Virus record (IMG/VR): IMGVR_UViG_3300033149_004812
Location: 1 to 28,805 of that record
DNA from: a virus
Reading direction: 5' to 3' (one strand)
Length of the DNA stretch: 28,805 nt
The notes beneath the pieces are model-generated. The model made no database searches and was not told the DNA's origin. It worked only from the letters and a program-made list of their open reading frames with translations. Numbering within the stretch: position 1 is the first letter of the stretch; each line of letters begins with the position of its first letter. The position numbers were made by a program, and so were the translations under genes. Positions 1,815-28,805 of the stretch are shown here, piece by piece.

Positions 1815-1871
1815 AATTAAACCACCTTTGTAATTTATATCTATTTTTGTTTATATATAAACCTTTGTATT
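1815..1871 (-). promoter_or_regulatory. Archaeal-type promoter and 5' leader, copy 1
   Basis: Read on the minus strand: AAATACAAAGG, then TATA box TTTATATATAA (1861-1851), about 20 bases of AT-rich spacer, then TTACAAAGGTGGTTTAATT and the ATG at 1814. TATA centre to ATG is 42 bases, predicting transcription to start near 1831, just before the GGTGG ribosome-binding site. It is nearly identical to 3880-3937 and 8164-8220 in the TATA block and the leader block. The box lies inside the last codons of the upstream 81-aa gene. Confidence 0.8.
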
Positions 1872-2096
1872 TAATATAGGTTCATCTTCATTATCTAAGA
1901 ATTTTATTGGGAATTCTACCTTAGAAAATTTAATATTGTTTCCACAATAAACACATTCTTTATTTGTTTTATTAATAATATCAAAGAATTGTTCATAGAT
2001 TCCTTTACTGTCAGAGTTAGTATCAATGTTCCTTAAAGGTATTGATAAATTCCTATTACAAATGCCACAACGATAAAGATATAAAAAATCTGTCAT
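1851..2096 (-). CDS. Small zinc-ribbon-like protein, 81 aa
   Basis: An 81-residue protein with two CxxC knuckles, CGIC at residues 10-13 and CVYC at 48-51, as in small zinc ribbons that bind nucleic acid or stabilise a fold. The spacing of about 34 residues is wide but acceptable. No exact family is recognised. The end of the gene is unusual: the codons for the final KVYI and the stop are the TATA box TTTATATATAA of promoter copy 1, so coding and promoter functions are superimposed. It lies downstream of the candidate structured RNA at 2105-2407 and could be expressed by read-through from that transcript. Confidence 0.68.
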   Translation of the reverse strand: MTDFLYLYRCGICNRNLSIPLRNIDTNSDSKGIYEQFFDIINKTNKECVYCGNNIKFSKVEFPIKFLDNEDEPILNTKVYI

Positions 2097-2104
2097 AATA
2101 AAAT

Positions 2105-2407
2105 TACATTTTTAGAATTTTTAAATTTATGTTTTAATTTCAGAATTAGTTTTTTGACAAAAGAAGTGAATGGAGTTTTAATTCCAGTTCCAGATGATCA
2201 ATCCAAAACCGAACTTCAAACCCAGTTGCTAAACCTAAATATGTTCTGGTTTTAACACCTTTACATATTTACCTTAATATAAATATTAAGACTCGTGGGT
2301 GAGATTTCCTGCATCTATAGTAGCTTAATTTAGGAAAAATAAACACTCCTTTCGACCTCAACTTAAATAAACCATTAAACCGAAGTAGAATAGCTCAAGT
2401 GCCAAGA
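2105..2407 (-). ncRNA. Candidate structured non-coding RNA, about 300 nt
   Basis: No frame of useful length exists here on either strand. The region is less AT-biased than its surroundings and contains paired elements: inverted arms 2236-2244 and 2263-2271 (9 bp perfect); 2205-2214 with 2243-2253 (10 bp with one bulged base); and 2273-2280 with 2283-2290 (8 bp). The second pairing overlaps the first, so they form either a pseudoknot or alternative folds. A TATA box at 2437-2429 predicts a start near 2407. I checked for tRNA, RNase P and SRP RNA signatures and found none that fit. The 3' end is not defined; no clear terminator follows. An untranslated leader for the 81-aa gene is the main alternative. 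Confidence 0.45.
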
Positions 2408-2428
2408 TATTAAATTCACATTTTTAAT

Positions 2429-2447
2429 ATTTATAAACTTATGTATT
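2429..2447 (-). promoter_or_regulatory. TATA promoter for the 2105-2407 RNA
   Basis: Minus-strand AAATACATAAG followed by TTTATAAATATTAAA. The AAATACA element plus TATA box matches the pattern at the three leaders and at 20057 and 22651. It overlaps the stop codon of the upstream 108-aa gene. Expected start is about 26 bases downstream, near 2407. Confidence 0.6.
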
Positions 2448-3879: not shown

Positions 3880-3937
3880 TGTTAAACCACCTTGTAAATA
3901 TATAATATATTTACTTATATATAAACCTTTGTATTTA
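3880..3937 (-). promoter_or_regulatory. Archaeal-type promoter and 5' leader, copy 2
   Basis: Minus strand: AAATACAAAGG, TATA box TTTATATATAA (3925-3915), spacer, then TTTACAAGGTGGTTTAACA and the ATG at 3879. TATA centre to ATG is 41 bases, as in the other two copies. The spacer contains a 9-bp inverted repeat (GTAAATATA and TATATTTAC) ending just before the predicted start site near 3894. Ribosome-binding site GGTGG at 3891-3887. This copy matches the candidate antisense RNA over 12 contiguous bases. Confidence 0.82.
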
Positions 3938-4022
3938 GAGAATATTATTATAATTGTTTTGGAATTTATGTTGTTAAAATAAGTCTTATAAAATCTTGCT
4001 GTGAAGCTCATTTATAAGATTA

Positions 4023-4093
4023 ATACAGAGTTCTATCTAAACGGTGGTTTAACATAGAAACAAATTTTAGAACAAAAATGTTGTCTCTGTATA
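4023..4093 (-). ncRNA. Candidate antisense RNA against GGTGG leaders, about 70 nt
   Basis: The ends are closed by a perfect 8-bp stem (AUACAGAG at 4092-4085 with CUCUGUAU at 4030-4023). Inside are a short AACA/UGUU hairpin and a long one at 4061-4030 of about 13 bp with a CACC loop. The 5' side and loop of the long hairpin read 5'-GUUAAACCACC (4053-4043), the exact complement of GGUGGUUUAAC in leader copies 2 and 3, and of copy 1 with one G-U pair. The predicted transcription start from the TATA box at 4124-4115 falls at the first base of the closing stem. No frame is encoded. It is not a tRNA: arms and loops do not fit. The 3' end is inferred from the stem only. Confidence 0.6.
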
Positions 4094-4114: not shown

Positions 4115-4130
4115 CTTTATAAAGTTATTT
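4115..4130 (-). promoter_or_regulatory. TATA promoter of the candidate antisense RNA
   Basis: Minus strand AAATAACTTTATAAAG. The 15-base string AAATAACTTTATAAA also occurs at 18512-18498 in front of the tail-terminator gene. TATA centre near 4119 places the start at about 4093, at the base of the RNA's closing stem. The box overlaps the last codons of the upstream 89-aa gene. Confidence 0.68.
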
Positions 4131-4398
4131 ATTCAGATTCTGAAACATTTTCAGATTCTGATTCAGATTCGACATTACTAGTATCTTCCTCTGCTTTAAC
4201 TTCATCAAACACTCCATTAAATTCTTCAATCAAACTATTAATTTGATGTAATTTTTCAAGAACATCTTTTTTTTGATTTACTAAATTATCATACTCAGTT
4301 TTAGCATTTGCTAATTGATTATCGTCTAAAGGAGTAATAAGTATTTCTTTTCGGCAAACTATGCCTTCTTCGTTTGTTATTAATGAATTATTTTCCAT
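4129..4398 (-). CDS. Coiled-coil protein with acidic Ser/Glu tail, 89 aa
   Basis: An 89-residue protein with a central helical region (about 27-65, LANAKTEYDNLVNQKKDVLEKLHQINSLIEEF read in pieces) that should form a coiled coil, and a highly acidic C-terminus built from Ser-Glu repeats (SESESE then SESE). Acidic tails of this type mimic DNA or keep small proteins soluble. The DNA encoding the tail is a short imperfect repeat of a TCAGATTC-like unit. No family recognised. Upstream of its ATG there is a TATA-like box near 4440 and a 16-base inverted repeat at 4405-4420. Confidence 0.62.
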   Translation of the reverse strand: MENNSLITNEEGIVCRKEILITPLDDNQLANAKTEYDNLVNQKKDVLEKLHQINSLIEEFNGVFDEVKAEEDTSNVESESESENVSESE

Positions 4399-8163: not shown

Positions 8164-8220
8164 AGTTAAACCACCTTGTAATTATTATAAGTTTATAGTT
8201 ATATATAAACCTTTGTATTT
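8164..8220 (-). promoter_or_regulatory. Archaeal-type promoter and 5' leader, copy 3
   Basis: Minus strand: AAATACAAAGG, TATA box TTTATATATAA (8209-8199), spacer, ATTACAAGGTGGTTTAACT, ATG at 8163. TATA centre to ATG is 41 bases. It drives the early operon with the Sak3 protein. The GGTGGTTTAAC block (8175-8165) is perfectly complementary to the candidate antisense RNA. The upstream end overlaps the stop codon of the 316-aa gene. Confidence 0.82.
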
Positions 8221-9169
8221 ATCCTAAATTATTTAGGAAATTCATACCTTCATTAAATATTTTATCTTTTTCAACTTGATTAATATTTACTCCTTGCATT
8301 ATTAATAATTCTCTATGACCTCTAACATTTAATTCTTTTTCATGCTCTAATTTAATCTTTTCTTCTTTTTTTGATATTTTGAATTGACTCTTGCCTTCAG
8401 AATTAGTAAATGTTTGATTATCTTTAACAACAAATTCAGTTAAGTTAGAAATTTCTGCTGAATTTAAATTAGAATAAATTCCATTATAACATTTCTTTTT
8501 ATTTTTTAATTCTTCTTTAACTTCCTGGATCAACATTAATTCAGAATTTTTATCATTCAAAACAAGATCAGTTCCAGTTGATTGGGACATTTTTACTTGT
8601 TTTACTGCAACTAATAGATCTATCTTTTTTTTAGTATCTTTTTCAATTATATCTCCATTCGGAAATTTAACTATTCTAAAATAATTATCTTTTTCTTCTG
8701 AGATTATTTTTTGTTTTACTGTTCTAAAACTTTTACTCCATTTCATTAATTGTTGGACTAAATCATATAGTCCTTGATTTGCTCCAATATTTTTTAGAAT
8801 ATTTGTTACAATTTTTTTCCATTTAGTTTTTCCAGCTGGAGTAATTATATATACTTTAGGATTTTGAGAATAAATTTTTGTAAAATCTGGAGTTATACTC
8901 ATTATTGCTTCTTGCATATTACTTGATAATTCACTTAATAATCTAAAACTTACCAATCCTAATTCATTTAATTTCTCAGCATATTTCTGGATCTGGCCCT
9001 TAGTTAAATTATGTTGTTTTATTAATTGCCAATCAAAAGCAAAATCATTGAAATGTAATGTCAGAAACATTTTAGAACATTGAAAATCTTTTGTAATATC
9101 ATCAATGGACCAGAGTTTATTCTTTTCATGTTTGAACTGTTGAAATTTTCTTGTTTTATAAAAGCTCAT
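8219..9169 (-). CDS. Winged-helix protein, possible replication initiator, 316 aa
   Basis: I start it at MSFYKTRKFQQFKHEK (ATG 9169); eight more codons are open but would lengthen the overlap with the previous gene. An N-terminal region of about 120 residues looks like one or two winged helices: LWSIDDITKDFQCS, then LIKQHNLTKGQIQKYAEKLN and ELGLVSFRLL, followed by a wing VYIITPAGKTKW. The rest is long, charged and probably helical (Lys/Glu-rich 190-300). Family not recognised. The gene follows the candidate origin region and another small winged-helix-like gene, the usual place for a replication initiator or master regulator, but no helicase or nuclease motif is present. Confidence 0.5.
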   Translation of the reverse strand: MSFYKTRKFQQFKHEKNKLWSIDDITKDFQCSKMFLTLHFNDFAFDWQLIKQHNLTKGQIQKYAEKLNELGLVSFRLLSELSSNMQEAIMSITPDFTKIYSQNPKVYIITPAGKTKWKKIVTNILKNIGANQGLYDLVQQLMKWSKSFRTVKQKIISEEKDNYFRIVKFPNGDIIEKDTKKKIDLLVAVKQVKMSQSTGTDLVLNDKNSELMLIQEVKEELKNKKKCYNGIYSNLNSAEISNLTEFVVKDNQTFTNSEGKSQFKISKKEEKIKLEHEKELNVRGHRELLIMQGVNINQVEKDKIFNEGMNFLNNLG

Positions 9170-9590: not shown

Positions 9591-9880
9591 TGTTGTCTCC
9601 AAATTAAAATAAAAATCTTTATAAAGAATAGAATATAGTAATAAGTATCATAGATCCTAATTCTTTCGGAGTTCCCCAACTCCTCAAACTTTTTTTTAAT
9701 TTAATAATAATATTATTATTATCTTTTATAATCTTTTCTATAATTATTAAGTAATGAATATTAAGTTAGTTGTTATGTTGCTGTCGTTAGCATTAGCATA
9801 ACTCTTTTTATATATATATATAATATAAAGCTTATACTCATAAATGTTTTTTTGTATTTTTTAGAATTTTAGAAAATTAG

Positions 9881-9899
9881 TTTATAAAACTATGTATTT
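9881..9899 (-). promoter_or_regulatory. TATA promoter inside the intergenic region
   Basis: Minus strand AAATACATAGTTTTATAAAC, an AAATACA element followed by a TATA box as at 2447-2429. The predicted start is near 9860, well upstream of the 144-aa gene. It could make a long leader for the 9590/9169 genes or an untranslated RNA across the possible origin. Confidence 0.45.
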
Positions 9900-9922
9900 A
9901 TTATGTAATATATAAGAATTTC

Positions 9923-9957
9923 AAAAAGGGGGAAAAGTTTAAAAACCACCTTTTTTT
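9923..9957. terminator. Bidirectional hairpin terminator, end of virion operon
   Basis: Arms AAAAAGG-G-GG (9923-9932) and CC-A-CCTTTTT (9947-9955) form a stem of 9 pairs with one G-A mismatch. On each strand the 3' arm ends in at least five T. On the minus strand this lies about 100 bases past the last virion gene. The A-side arm contains GGTGG on the minus strand, so the plus-strand reading would also be complementary to the three early leaders. Confidence 0.5.
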
Positions 9958-10061
9958 GTTTTAATATCAAATACCCATACAAAAAATGAGTTAGCATATC
10001 ACCCAAAATTAATTGGGTATAAATATATTGTATTTTTATTATTTAAATATTTTTAGTACAA

Positions 10062-18451: not shown

Positions 18452-18512
18452 AGTCTAACTTTAGACTGTTTAACTAATTAAATTCTAGTCAATGGAATTT
18501 ATAAAGTTATTT
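18452..18512 (-). promoter_or_regulatory. Promoter and leader hairpin of the tail gene block
   Basis: TATA element AAATAACTTTATAAA (18512-18498) just after the gp10-like stop codon, with an expected start near 18476. The roughly 48-base leader holds the inverted repeat AGTCTAA (18452-18458) and TTAGACT (18461-18467). AAGTGGT lies 5-6 bases ahead of the ATG at 18428 and may be the ribosome-binding site. It would drive the tail genes as a unit. Confidence 0.55.
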
Positions 18513-26633: not shown

Positions 26634-26659
26634 AAAAAAGTGATGGTTTTAAGCATCAC
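26634..26659 (-). terminator. Hairpin plus T-run terminator after the large structural gene
   Basis: Minus strand: stem GTGATG (26659-26654), loop CTTAAAAC, stem CATCAC (26645-26640), then six T (26639-26634). It overlaps the stop codon of the large structural gene. It closes that transcription unit and explains why a fresh promoter is needed for the 149-aa gene and portal. Confidence 0.65.
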
Positions 26660-28805
26660 TTGTTCTTACAGCACCAACTGTAAATCCTGTTGAACCAAAT
26701 TCTGAGGTTGTAGGGAATGGTTTAATAGGCCCATTCTTGACTGCAGTATAACCATTTTGAACTTTGATTGCTACTTTAGTGCTTGGAGCACCATAAATAG
26801 CTGTGAAACTTAAACTTCCATCAGCTGTAGCTTCCTCATCAAGGAATGCTCTCATAACATTATTTCCTGCTGTTGCAGTACTTGGGGCAGTACCCACTAA
26901 AGTATAAGTATCATCTCCATTATGTGCTGAGTACTCCAATAAATCATAATTATTATCTGAGTCTCTTTCAATTCTCAAAAATCCTGCAGCAGGAGTATTT
27001 GTGGGAATATTTCCTGTTCCTACATCAACACTTGTTGAAACTCCACTAGTTAATCCTGTATTTAATGTTGCTTCATCAAAATCAGGTTCTGCATCACCAT
27101 TAACATCTGTTGAAGTTCCATCCCAAGGATAAACTGTTACAGTATCTCCTATTTTAAGTGATGTGATTACTCCTTGTTGATTATTAGGTGGTAATTGATT
27201 AACTCCTAGTAAGTTTGGTAAAATATCTCCTACAATTGCATCAGTTGAATCTATTGCAATTCCAAAATTAGTCTGAAAATTTGTACCAGTATAATTTCCT
27301 ATGAATTGATTGTTAATAGTCCTTGTAGCAGGAGTTCCATTAATCAAACAATTAGAATTACTTGTGCTTCCATAAATTTCTGAATCATCAATTGGAGTTG
27401 TTCCAGTTAATACTGAAACATACATATTTCCAGTAGTTCCATCATCATCTAAAGCAATTAAAGTACCAGTTCCTGCAGTTGTATTAGTTCCTACAGTAGC
27501 TAAAGTACCATCACCAGCAGATGTTAATCCAGTCATAGTTTCAGCTGCAGAAGGTAAATCATTACCATTCATATCAAATATTAATGTTCCTGTAGCACCA
27601 CCATCATCTTGGTAAATTAATCTTCCTCTTGAACCTCCTGAAAATGTAACCACTTCTCCAGTTGTAAGATTAGTTGTTTGACCTGTATAAGTCATAACTG
27701 TTCCCCAAACTAAAATTTCATCTTCTGAAAAATTAGCTGATTCTGCATCATAAGGGAAATTTAAATTCATACCATCAAAATAAGTAGCATCTCTACCAAA
27801 TAATGTTTCAGCAGTTCCTCTCCTTCCAACATATTTAGTTCTTTCATAAGTTTCTAATGAATTAGCAGAACCAAAATCAGTACTTAAACCAAAAGGAGTT
27901 GCTCCATTACCATTTCCATAATCAATTAATTGGTAACCTTCAGTAAATACAACAGTATTATAAGGTGCACCAGCAACAGTAGCTTCTGATGTTTGATTAT
28001 TTCCATCTGTTGATGAGAATAAAGCCAAAGCAGTAGTACCTAAACCTAAAGTTGTTCCTCCTATAAAGTAAGAATCTCCAAATTCTGCAAGTTTTCCTTT
28101 AATCCTTTTACCATCAAAATCAACACCATTTTCTCTAGTCTTAATCATAATTCTAACATTTCCTGCAACAGAATCTGGATTATAAGCATTCTTCCAATAA
28201 TCTGTAATAATTGCATCATCTTGAATTAAAATAGGTTGAGTATCTGCATTAGGTGATGTTACTTGAATATCAGCACCTGAATATAAAGTATCTCCACTAT
28301 CTTGACTTACTGAACCACCATACATATGTTGAATAACTTCATCACTATTATTCATATTACCTAATAGATTAATAATTTGATCTGTATCTTTACTTGAAGC
28401 AATAGGATCTACTCTTGATAAATCATCATCACCAGCAATATCTCCATTATCATTTAGATCTTGTAAAAGCCTGTGTTCATCATATGGTTTATAACTTCTA
28501 GGATGAATTATTCCATTAACTGTTCCATCTCCAATAATATCTCCAGTAAAAGTATCATCATCTACAGGTAATCCTTCATCAATATTTGAGATAAATCTAA
28601 CTGATAATTCACCATCAGCTCCAGCATCACTTTCAACTGTGATTACTTCAGCTGTTTGTCCTCCTGAAAATGTTAATATTTCTCCAGCAACTACATTACT
28701 TGTTTGACCATCAAAAAAGAATGAGTGTGTTGTTCCTAATGCTGGTCCAGTCCAAGTAATATCTCCTGATCCTGCAATTGCAACATCTTTTCTAAAATAT
28801 GCAGG
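26649..28805 (-). CDS. Large repeat-containing virion structural protein, incomplete
   Basis: The frame is open from the right edge (28805) through 718 codons to 26649. The only early Met (28355) is internal, not a start: the 150 codons before it are clearly coding (NGIIHPRSYKPYDEHRLLQD ... IASSKDTDQIINLLGN). The protein is rich in Gly, Thr, Asn and Asp with many short beta strands, typical of appendage or whisker proteins. A unit GEILTFSGGQTAEVITVESD ... DDDTFTG, near the left of the visible sequence, recurs as GEVVTFSGGSRGRLIYQDDG ... SAAETMTG later; further weaker copies (TLIALDDDGTTGNMYVSVLTG) follow. The family often adjoins the 149-aa protein in phages. Host surface binding is possible. 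Confidence 0.7.
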   Translation of the reverse strand, partial: PAYFRKDVAIAGSGDITWTGPALGTTHSFFFDGQTSNVVAGEILTFSGGQTAEVITVESDAGADGELSVRFISNIDEGLPVDDDTFTGDIIGDGTVNGIIHPRSYKPYDEHRLLQDLNDNGDIAGDDDLSRVDPIASSKDTDQIINLLGNMNNSDEVIQHMYGGSVSQDSGDTLYSGADIQVTSPNADTQPILIQDDAIITDYWKNAYNPDSVAGNVRIMIKTRENGVDFDGKRIKGKLAEFGDSYFIGGTTLGLGTTALALFSSTDGNNQTSEATVAGAPYNTVVFTEGYQLIDYGNGNGATPFGLSTDFGSANSLETYERTKYVGRRGTAETLFGRDATYFDGMNLNFPYDAESANFSEDEILVWGTVMTYTGQTTNLTTGEVVTFSGGSRGRLIYQDDGGATGTLIFDMNGNDLPSAAETMTGLTSAGDGTLATVGTNTTAGTGTLIALDDDGTTGNMYVSVLTGTTPIDDSEIYGSTSNSNCLINGTPATRTINNQFIGNYTGTNFQTNFGIAIDSTDAIVGDILPNLLGVNQLPPNNQQGVITSLKIGDTVTVYPWDGTSTDVNGDAEPDFDEATLNTGLTSGVSTSVDVGTGNIPTNTPAAGFLRIERDSDNNYDLLEYSAHNGDDTYTLVGTAPSTATAGNNVMRAFLDEEATADGSLSFTAIYGAPSTKVAIKVQNGYTAVKNGPIKPFPTTSEFGSTGFTVGAVRTSDA

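Follow-up and report, generated by a model that had tools for sequence, protein, structure and literature searches.

A folded noncoding element with an anti-Shine-Dalgarno loop, complementary to three early leaders, in a probably archaeal tailed virus: a candidate antisense RNA

On the minus strand of an IMG/VR virus record of 28,805 bases (GC 27.6%; the whole stretch that was analysed, hereafter "the window"), a noncoding segment of 70 nt can fold into a Y-shaped structure, one loop of which is complementary to the Shine-Dalgarno (SD) sequences in the leaders of three early operons. The folded element and its complementarity to the leaders are both confirmed. The best reading, which we consider probable, is that the element encodes an antisense RNA blocking SD sequences, in cis, in trans or both. 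Whether it does so as a trans-acting RNA of ~70 nt that shuts off all three early operons, as the earlier note had proposed, appears about evenly balanced from the sequence.

Nearly all genes of the window are located on the minus strand. Portal, HK97-type capsid protein, prohead protease and a YopX-like protein are encoded, as well as two recombination genes that matter below:

8024-7335: Sak single-strand annealing protein
810-88: exonuclease gene

No terminase was recognised among the window proteins searched. Genes overrun both ends of the window (26649-28805; 1-87), and the record is therefore a fragment. The leaderless structural genes (26108, 20057) exhibit TATA boxes of the type TTTATAWA ~30 nt 5' of their start codons, while genes with leaders carry SDs of the GGTG type. 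The virus is tailed and probably archaeal; the archaeal host is suggested by the TATA boxes, the start spacing and the GGTG-type SDs, not by a host match.

The element and the hairpin that follows it are located as follows:

4023-4092, minus strand: predicted 70-nt Y-shaped RNA (MFE -16.2 kcal/mol, z -3.53)
4043-4054, minus strand: anti-SD segment UGUUAAACCACC, with the CACC tetraloop at 4046-4043
3985-4020, minus strand: second short hairpin, CUUAUAAA/UUUUAUAAG, directly 3' of the Y and not followed by an oligo-T terminator

From 4092 to 4023 the minus strand reads AUACAGAG ACAACAUUUUUGUUCUAAAAUUUGU UUCUAUGUUAAACCACCGUUUAGAUAGAA CUCUGUAU, which folds into a closing stem (4092-4085/4030-4023), hairpin A (4084-4060) and the anti-SD hairpin B (4059-4031). 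The fold bears out the earlier description of a 70-nt region closed by an 8-bp stem, which is formed by AUACAGAG and CUCUGUAU. Hairpins A and B abut without a gap, the junction contains no unpaired bases, and apart from two bulges of one base each and the loops of the two hairpins, every nucleotide can pair. The CACC loop ascribed to the anti-SD hairpin is present, but the stem of this hairpin is 12 bp long instead of 13 bp; it includes a U-G pair and a single bulged G. None of 200 shuffled sequences was equally stable, and the plus strand folds less stably (-14.8 kcal/mol, z -2.77). The element resides in a noncoding gap of 249 nt within a compact genome. When the genome was tiled in segments of 72 nt and z was calculated for the most stable ones, the element was among the ten best of ~4,800 segments, and several coding segments matched or surpassed its z; the fold is therefore notable, not unique. 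A search of Rfam yielded no match to the element, only hits at chance level. Short ORFs within the element (≤11 codons) were considered and not credited.

The leaders matched by the loop belong to three near-copies of one promoter-leader module:

1815-1872, minus strand: module copy 1, preceding gene 1814-1566, which is followed by the YopX-like and exonuclease genes; 10-nt match plus a G-U pair
3880-3936, minus strand: module copy 2, AAATACAAAGGTTTATATATAA ... ACAAGGUGGUUUAACA, preceding gene 3879-3700; 12-nt match
8164-8220, minus strand: module copy 3, preceding gene 8163-8026; 11-nt match

Gene 8163-8026 is followed by sak, so that the annealing protein is indeed encoded in one of the target operons, as had been claimed. 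The module common to the starts 1814, 3879 and 8163 has the form AAATACAAAGGTTTATATATAA, 19 to 20 nt, ACAAGGTGGTTTAAC-N-ATGGAAAA. Each of the three early promoters has, 30 nt beyond the initial T of its TATA box, an A that follows TT; the predicted 5' UTRs are therefore ~16 nt long and read ACA(A)AGGUGGUUUAAC/U-N. The 11-nt stretch GUUAAACCACC of the hairpin, which includes the tetraloop CACC, can form a perfect duplex with the leader sequence GGUGGUUUAAC at 3891-3881 (extending to 12 nt) and at 8175-8165 (11 nt), and, if one G-U pair is allowed, with the leader at 1826-1816; apart from small details, coordinates and pairings had been given correctly in the earlier note. Put in terms of the leader, GGTGGTTTAAC occurs exactly at 3891-3881(-) and 8175-8165(-), and at 1826-1816(-) with one mismatch, which makes the G-U pair with the RNA. 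Its complement is found in this hairpin only. Given leaders that are near-copies with a 5' UTR of 16 nt, the RNA would therefore span almost the entire shared 5' UTR. Of note, the string AAATACAAAGG is present upstream of the TATA box in all three early modules; it may represent an operator or an activator site for early genes.

How much of this could arise by chance, i.e. from an AT-rich fold and an 11-nt match that have no common cause? The exact 11-mer is present three times in the window, in two leaders and once in antisense, while ~0.006 copies are expected on both strands from a Markov model. Shuffling, the check on complementary sites that had been suggested earlier, predicts 0.01 copies per window. 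In this genome of 28% GC, ~2% of all 70-nt segments reach an 11-nt complement to some leader, and complement length alone is weak evidence in AT-rich sequence. Just one other place reaches a 10-nt complement to all three leaders; as the leaders are copies of one module, the three matches amount to one coincidence, not three. When the 11-mer was kept fixed and its flanks were shuffled 3,000 times, an equally stable fold was obtained in 0.27% of cases and placement of CACC in a hairpin loop in 18.5%, and both together in 0.03% (1 of 3,000). Interaction free energies, calculated as the dimer ensemble minus the monomers, placed the three leaders at ranks 1-3 among 47 gene starts (-10.9, -9.9 and -8.9 kcal/mol), the remaining starts having a mean of -1.2 and a best value of -4.6 kcal/mol. 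Random 70-mers of the AT-rich genome reach or fall below the observed mean leader interaction energy in 15% of cases. Because RNAduplex predicts too many pairs in AT-rich RNA, its results for whole leaders were of no use. Finally, five noncoding gaps were compared with the 47 starts for complements of ≥9 nt containing ≥4 G/C; on the minus strand none emerged apart from those between this RNA and the three leaders, and complementarity to several ribosome-binding sites is thus well above background. Chance would gain from the fact that about ten segments per genome have z ≤ -3.9 and that the leader was picked because of its match. However, the 11-mer alone is expected only 0.006 times, and fold, loop position, promoter and noncoding location would have to coincide with it; we regard coincidence as very unlikely.

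The element is preceded by a promoter of its own:

4116-4130, minus strand: RNA promoter core AAATAACTTTATAAA, with the TATA box TTTATAAA at 4123-4116

A4092, the first base of the closing stem, lies 31 nt after the first T of this TATA box. For comparison, the distance from the first T is 30 nt to the start at the early promoters and 29-32 nt to the start codon at the two leaderless genes. From the spacing at the three early promoters the RNA is therefore predicted to start at 4093/4092, that is, with the first stem base. The previous proposal that the TATA box sets the start at this base fits, once the box is moved to the coordinates given here. TATA box and start placement thus agree with an sRNA that has its own promoter; at the 3' end no terminator was found. 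The 15-mer AAATAACTTTATAAA recurs only once, at 18512, upstream of gene 18428-17727 in the tail/structural region (expected 0.004), and AAATACAAAGG, present at the early promoters, is missing from that of the RNA. Since the promoter core is shared with a tail-region gene, late expression of the RNA is suggested. The copy at 18512 (-) is followed by a hairpin-like leader, AGTCTAA-AG-TTAGACTT, ahead of gene 18428-17727.

No oligo-T terminator is present between 4023 and the next gene, and the nearest target SD is located 130 nt downstream, at 3891. We also considered the fold of a transcript reading through from 4092 to 3840. In this predicted RNA the SD of gene 3879 is sequestered by the anti-SD with a pairing probability of 0.999, an extended hairpin A replaces the closing stem, and the fold reaches -46.4 kcal/mol as compared to -35.6 kcal/mol when the Y is kept, i.e. 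retention of the Y costs 10.8 kcal/mol. Gene 3879 would therefore be shut off in cis by such an RNA, whereas all three leaders could be reached by one that is short or has been processed. The Y might accordingly be no more than a cis-acting leader, the 5' end of a longer transcript running into operon 3879-2439, in which case gene 3879 would be silent on transcripts from the distal promoter and translated from those of the proximal one, and the other two operons would match solely via the common leader module. The missing terminator between 4023 and 3891 and the preference of the read-through RNA for the cis duplex speak in favor of this, as does the observation that the nearest leader has the longest match (12 nt) and is unique in allowing a longer inverted repeat, of 21 nt at 86%. 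On the other hand, gene 3879 has its own strong promoter and a 16-nt leader at 3925; the additional flank match lies outside the mRNA made from this proximal promoter, because that mRNA is predicted to start at ACAAGG; and the leaders of 8163 and 1814 are just as free to bind. Purely cis action therefore seems unlikely to us. As the anti-SD segment would also silence the SD of 3879 in read-through transcripts, action in cis and in trans are compatible with each other.

On the opposite strand the same region resembles the leader module itself:

4011-4056, plus strand: leader-module look-alike, with TATA TTTATAAG, 32 nt, GGTGGTTTAAC and no start codon

The element could thus be a functionless relic, a degenerate plus-strand inverted copy of the promoter-leader module whose antisense hairpin is incidental. 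Such an origin would account for the plus-strand TATA at nearly module spacing before GGTGGTTTAAC, an arrangement found at 1.2% of random positions, and for a degraded ATG-GAAA-like end on the plus strand. However, outside the 11-mer the flanks show no significant similarity (P ~0.06), the probability of an equally stable chance fold with the anti-SD in the loop is ~0.0003, and it is the minus strand that folds better and has the well-placed promoter. An inverted copy could equally be the origin of a working antisense RNA. An inverted leader duplication is a plausible birth of the RNA and alone would not explain the fold; a mere relic seems quite unlikely.

We also weighed whether the element mimics a solitary CRISPR repeat and acts as an RNA anti-CRISPR, by analogy with the Racrs, which are solitary viral repeats (PMC10651486). 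The plus-strand stretch 4030-4061, GTTCTATCTAAACGGTGGTTTAACATAGAAAC, does look repeat-like (GTT ... ATAGAAAC, with GTT and GAAAC ends), and the Rfam model CRISPR-DR43 can be aligned with it from end to end. The score of 17.2 bits (E 0.87 for 81 nt searched) falls so far short of the cut-off of 35, however, that it does not count as a match to a known repeat family. Moreover, a second repeat is absent, no such repeat was found in plasmid records, and the match to the leaders would be left unexplained. This explanation is extremely unlikely.

The preferred reading, an antisense RNA directed against SD sequences, builds on features read directly from the sequence, namely the fold, the complementarity, the common leaders, the TATA placement and the late-type promoter core. 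From these we infer that the virus would transcribe a noncoding RNA of ~70 nt from its own TATA promoter, probably late, with a 3' end predicted at the foot of the closing stem. In the cell, the CACC tetraloop would touch the SD GGUG in the near-identical 16-nt leaders of the three early mRNAs, whereupon the 5' arm of the hairpin (GUUAAAC) would unfold to give a duplex of 11-12 bp that reaches the start codon and leaves hardly any of the 5' UTR uncovered. A duplex over the 5' UTR would block ribosome loading, and the three early operons, which comprise recombination genes and small genes of no assigned function, would go off together as the structural genes come on. The complete scenario, an early-to-late switch of an archaeal virus in which a C4-like trans sRNA from a late promoter silences three operons with copied leaders and possibly descends from an inverted copy, is put forward tentatively.

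Protein scans of viral and genome contigs revealed no relatives of the virus in IMG/VR, GTDB genomes or phage records, and a scan with Sak retrieved only distant Sak relatives (about 40%). The hairpin core gave 22 hits in viral contigs, roughly the chance estimate, none of which had similar flanks or leaders. Pattern scans of viral and genome contigs did not detect the promoter-leader module. A relaxed leader scan returned 31 contigs with SD leaders, several of them archaeal-looking; none carried an antisense hairpin like that of the element, and the few antisense core matches (contigs L036 and L056) lie in sequence unlike it. Contigs L028 and L029 have only a 19-nt promoter string in common with the window. 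In L029, an unrelated tailed-virus contig of IMG/VR, this early promoter string is located at 8492-8510 before a small gene adjoining the terminase gene; capsid, portal and exonuclease of L029 are unrelated to those of the window by BLASTP. The shared string suggests a common host promoter type.

The closest known parallel is the C4 RNA of phages P1/P7, which has ~77 nt and three stems, is cut from a transcript also bearing its downstream target, and uses one of its loops to cover part of the target's ribosome-binding site (PMC5320573); c4, icd and ant are held in one operon (PMC8198154). Like C4, the element has ~70 nt and three stems and closely precedes a target encoded on the same strand, with a loop directed against the SD (12 nt, gene 3879, 130 nt downstream). 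The Rfam model of C4 gave no hit, neither at the gathering threshold in the window nor at E up to 5-10 in the element. Unlike C4, which has two target-binding loops, the element has one: only the CACC hairpin pairs, and the loop UGUUCU of hairpin A has no complement in the 16-nt leaders. It further differs by three predicted target leaders, by its probably archaeal virus and by its own promoter, which starts at the stem and would therefore make 5' processing dispensable.

In archaea, the Methanosarcina mazei sRNA154, sRNA41 and sRNA162 act in trans by masking ribosome-binding sites, sRNA154 via a loop, sRNA41 at several sites and sRNA162 in cis and in trans (PMC5867862, PMC3510493). These RNAs are host-encoded, respond to nitrogen or carbon, have unrelated sequences, and their targets do not share one copied viral leader. 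The archaeal tailed viruses phiH1 and HFTV1 encode antisense RNAs (PMC6210493, PMC12542753), which in HFTV1 are late and directed against early DNA-metabolism operons (PMC12542753). However, the HFTV1 RNAs arise from the strand opposite their target, while the compact element lies elsewhere on the same strand and matches three operons. The phiH1 antisense RNA reportedly likewise comes from the strand opposite its target. In halovirus HF2, one promoter sequence is repeated before several operons, with proven promoter activity, which resembles the three early modules described here; the abstract of that study reports long counter-transcripts and mentions no partner antisense hairpin (PMC8707807). 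In the open-access papers searched we found no description of a virus-encoded trans-acting sRNA regulon in archaea. As far as these papers go, the earlier view that such control is not described thus holds for a viral sRNA with several operons as targets, but not for its components, since archaeal anti-RBS sRNAs and archaeal virus antisense RNAs have been reported before; a single viral RNA directed at several leaders would be a novel variation on them. As to this regulon, the fold, the TATA box, the anti-SD loop and the three leaders stand, the leaders count as one module, and trans action is a prediction. If true, an archaeal virus would possess an sRNA with a defined multi-operon regulon. 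Phage immunity RNAs such as C4 would then have a counterpart in a second domain, and infection could be timed by compact means, with no need for a protein repressor. The exact 12-base pairing is easily testable, and the layout of a repeated leader plus one anti-leader hairpin is recognisable and can be searched for in other viral genomes.

Three further regions of the window deserve mention. An ORF-free gap of 342 nt at 2097-2438 (-) has its own TATA promoter near 2440 and is possibly an untranslated RNA or a leader; its stretch 2410-2200 folds no better than shuffled sequences (z -0.5). The noncoding gap of 459 nt at 9603-10061 contains an AT-dinucleotide run and, at 9955 (-), AAAAAGGTGGTTTTTAAAC, which partly resembles the early leaders; the gap is possibly an origin or a regulatory region. 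The neighbouring gene on the upstream side of the RNA codes at its end for an acidic tail of Ser-Glu repeats (4129-4167, minus strand); the DNA of this tail is strongly self-complementary.
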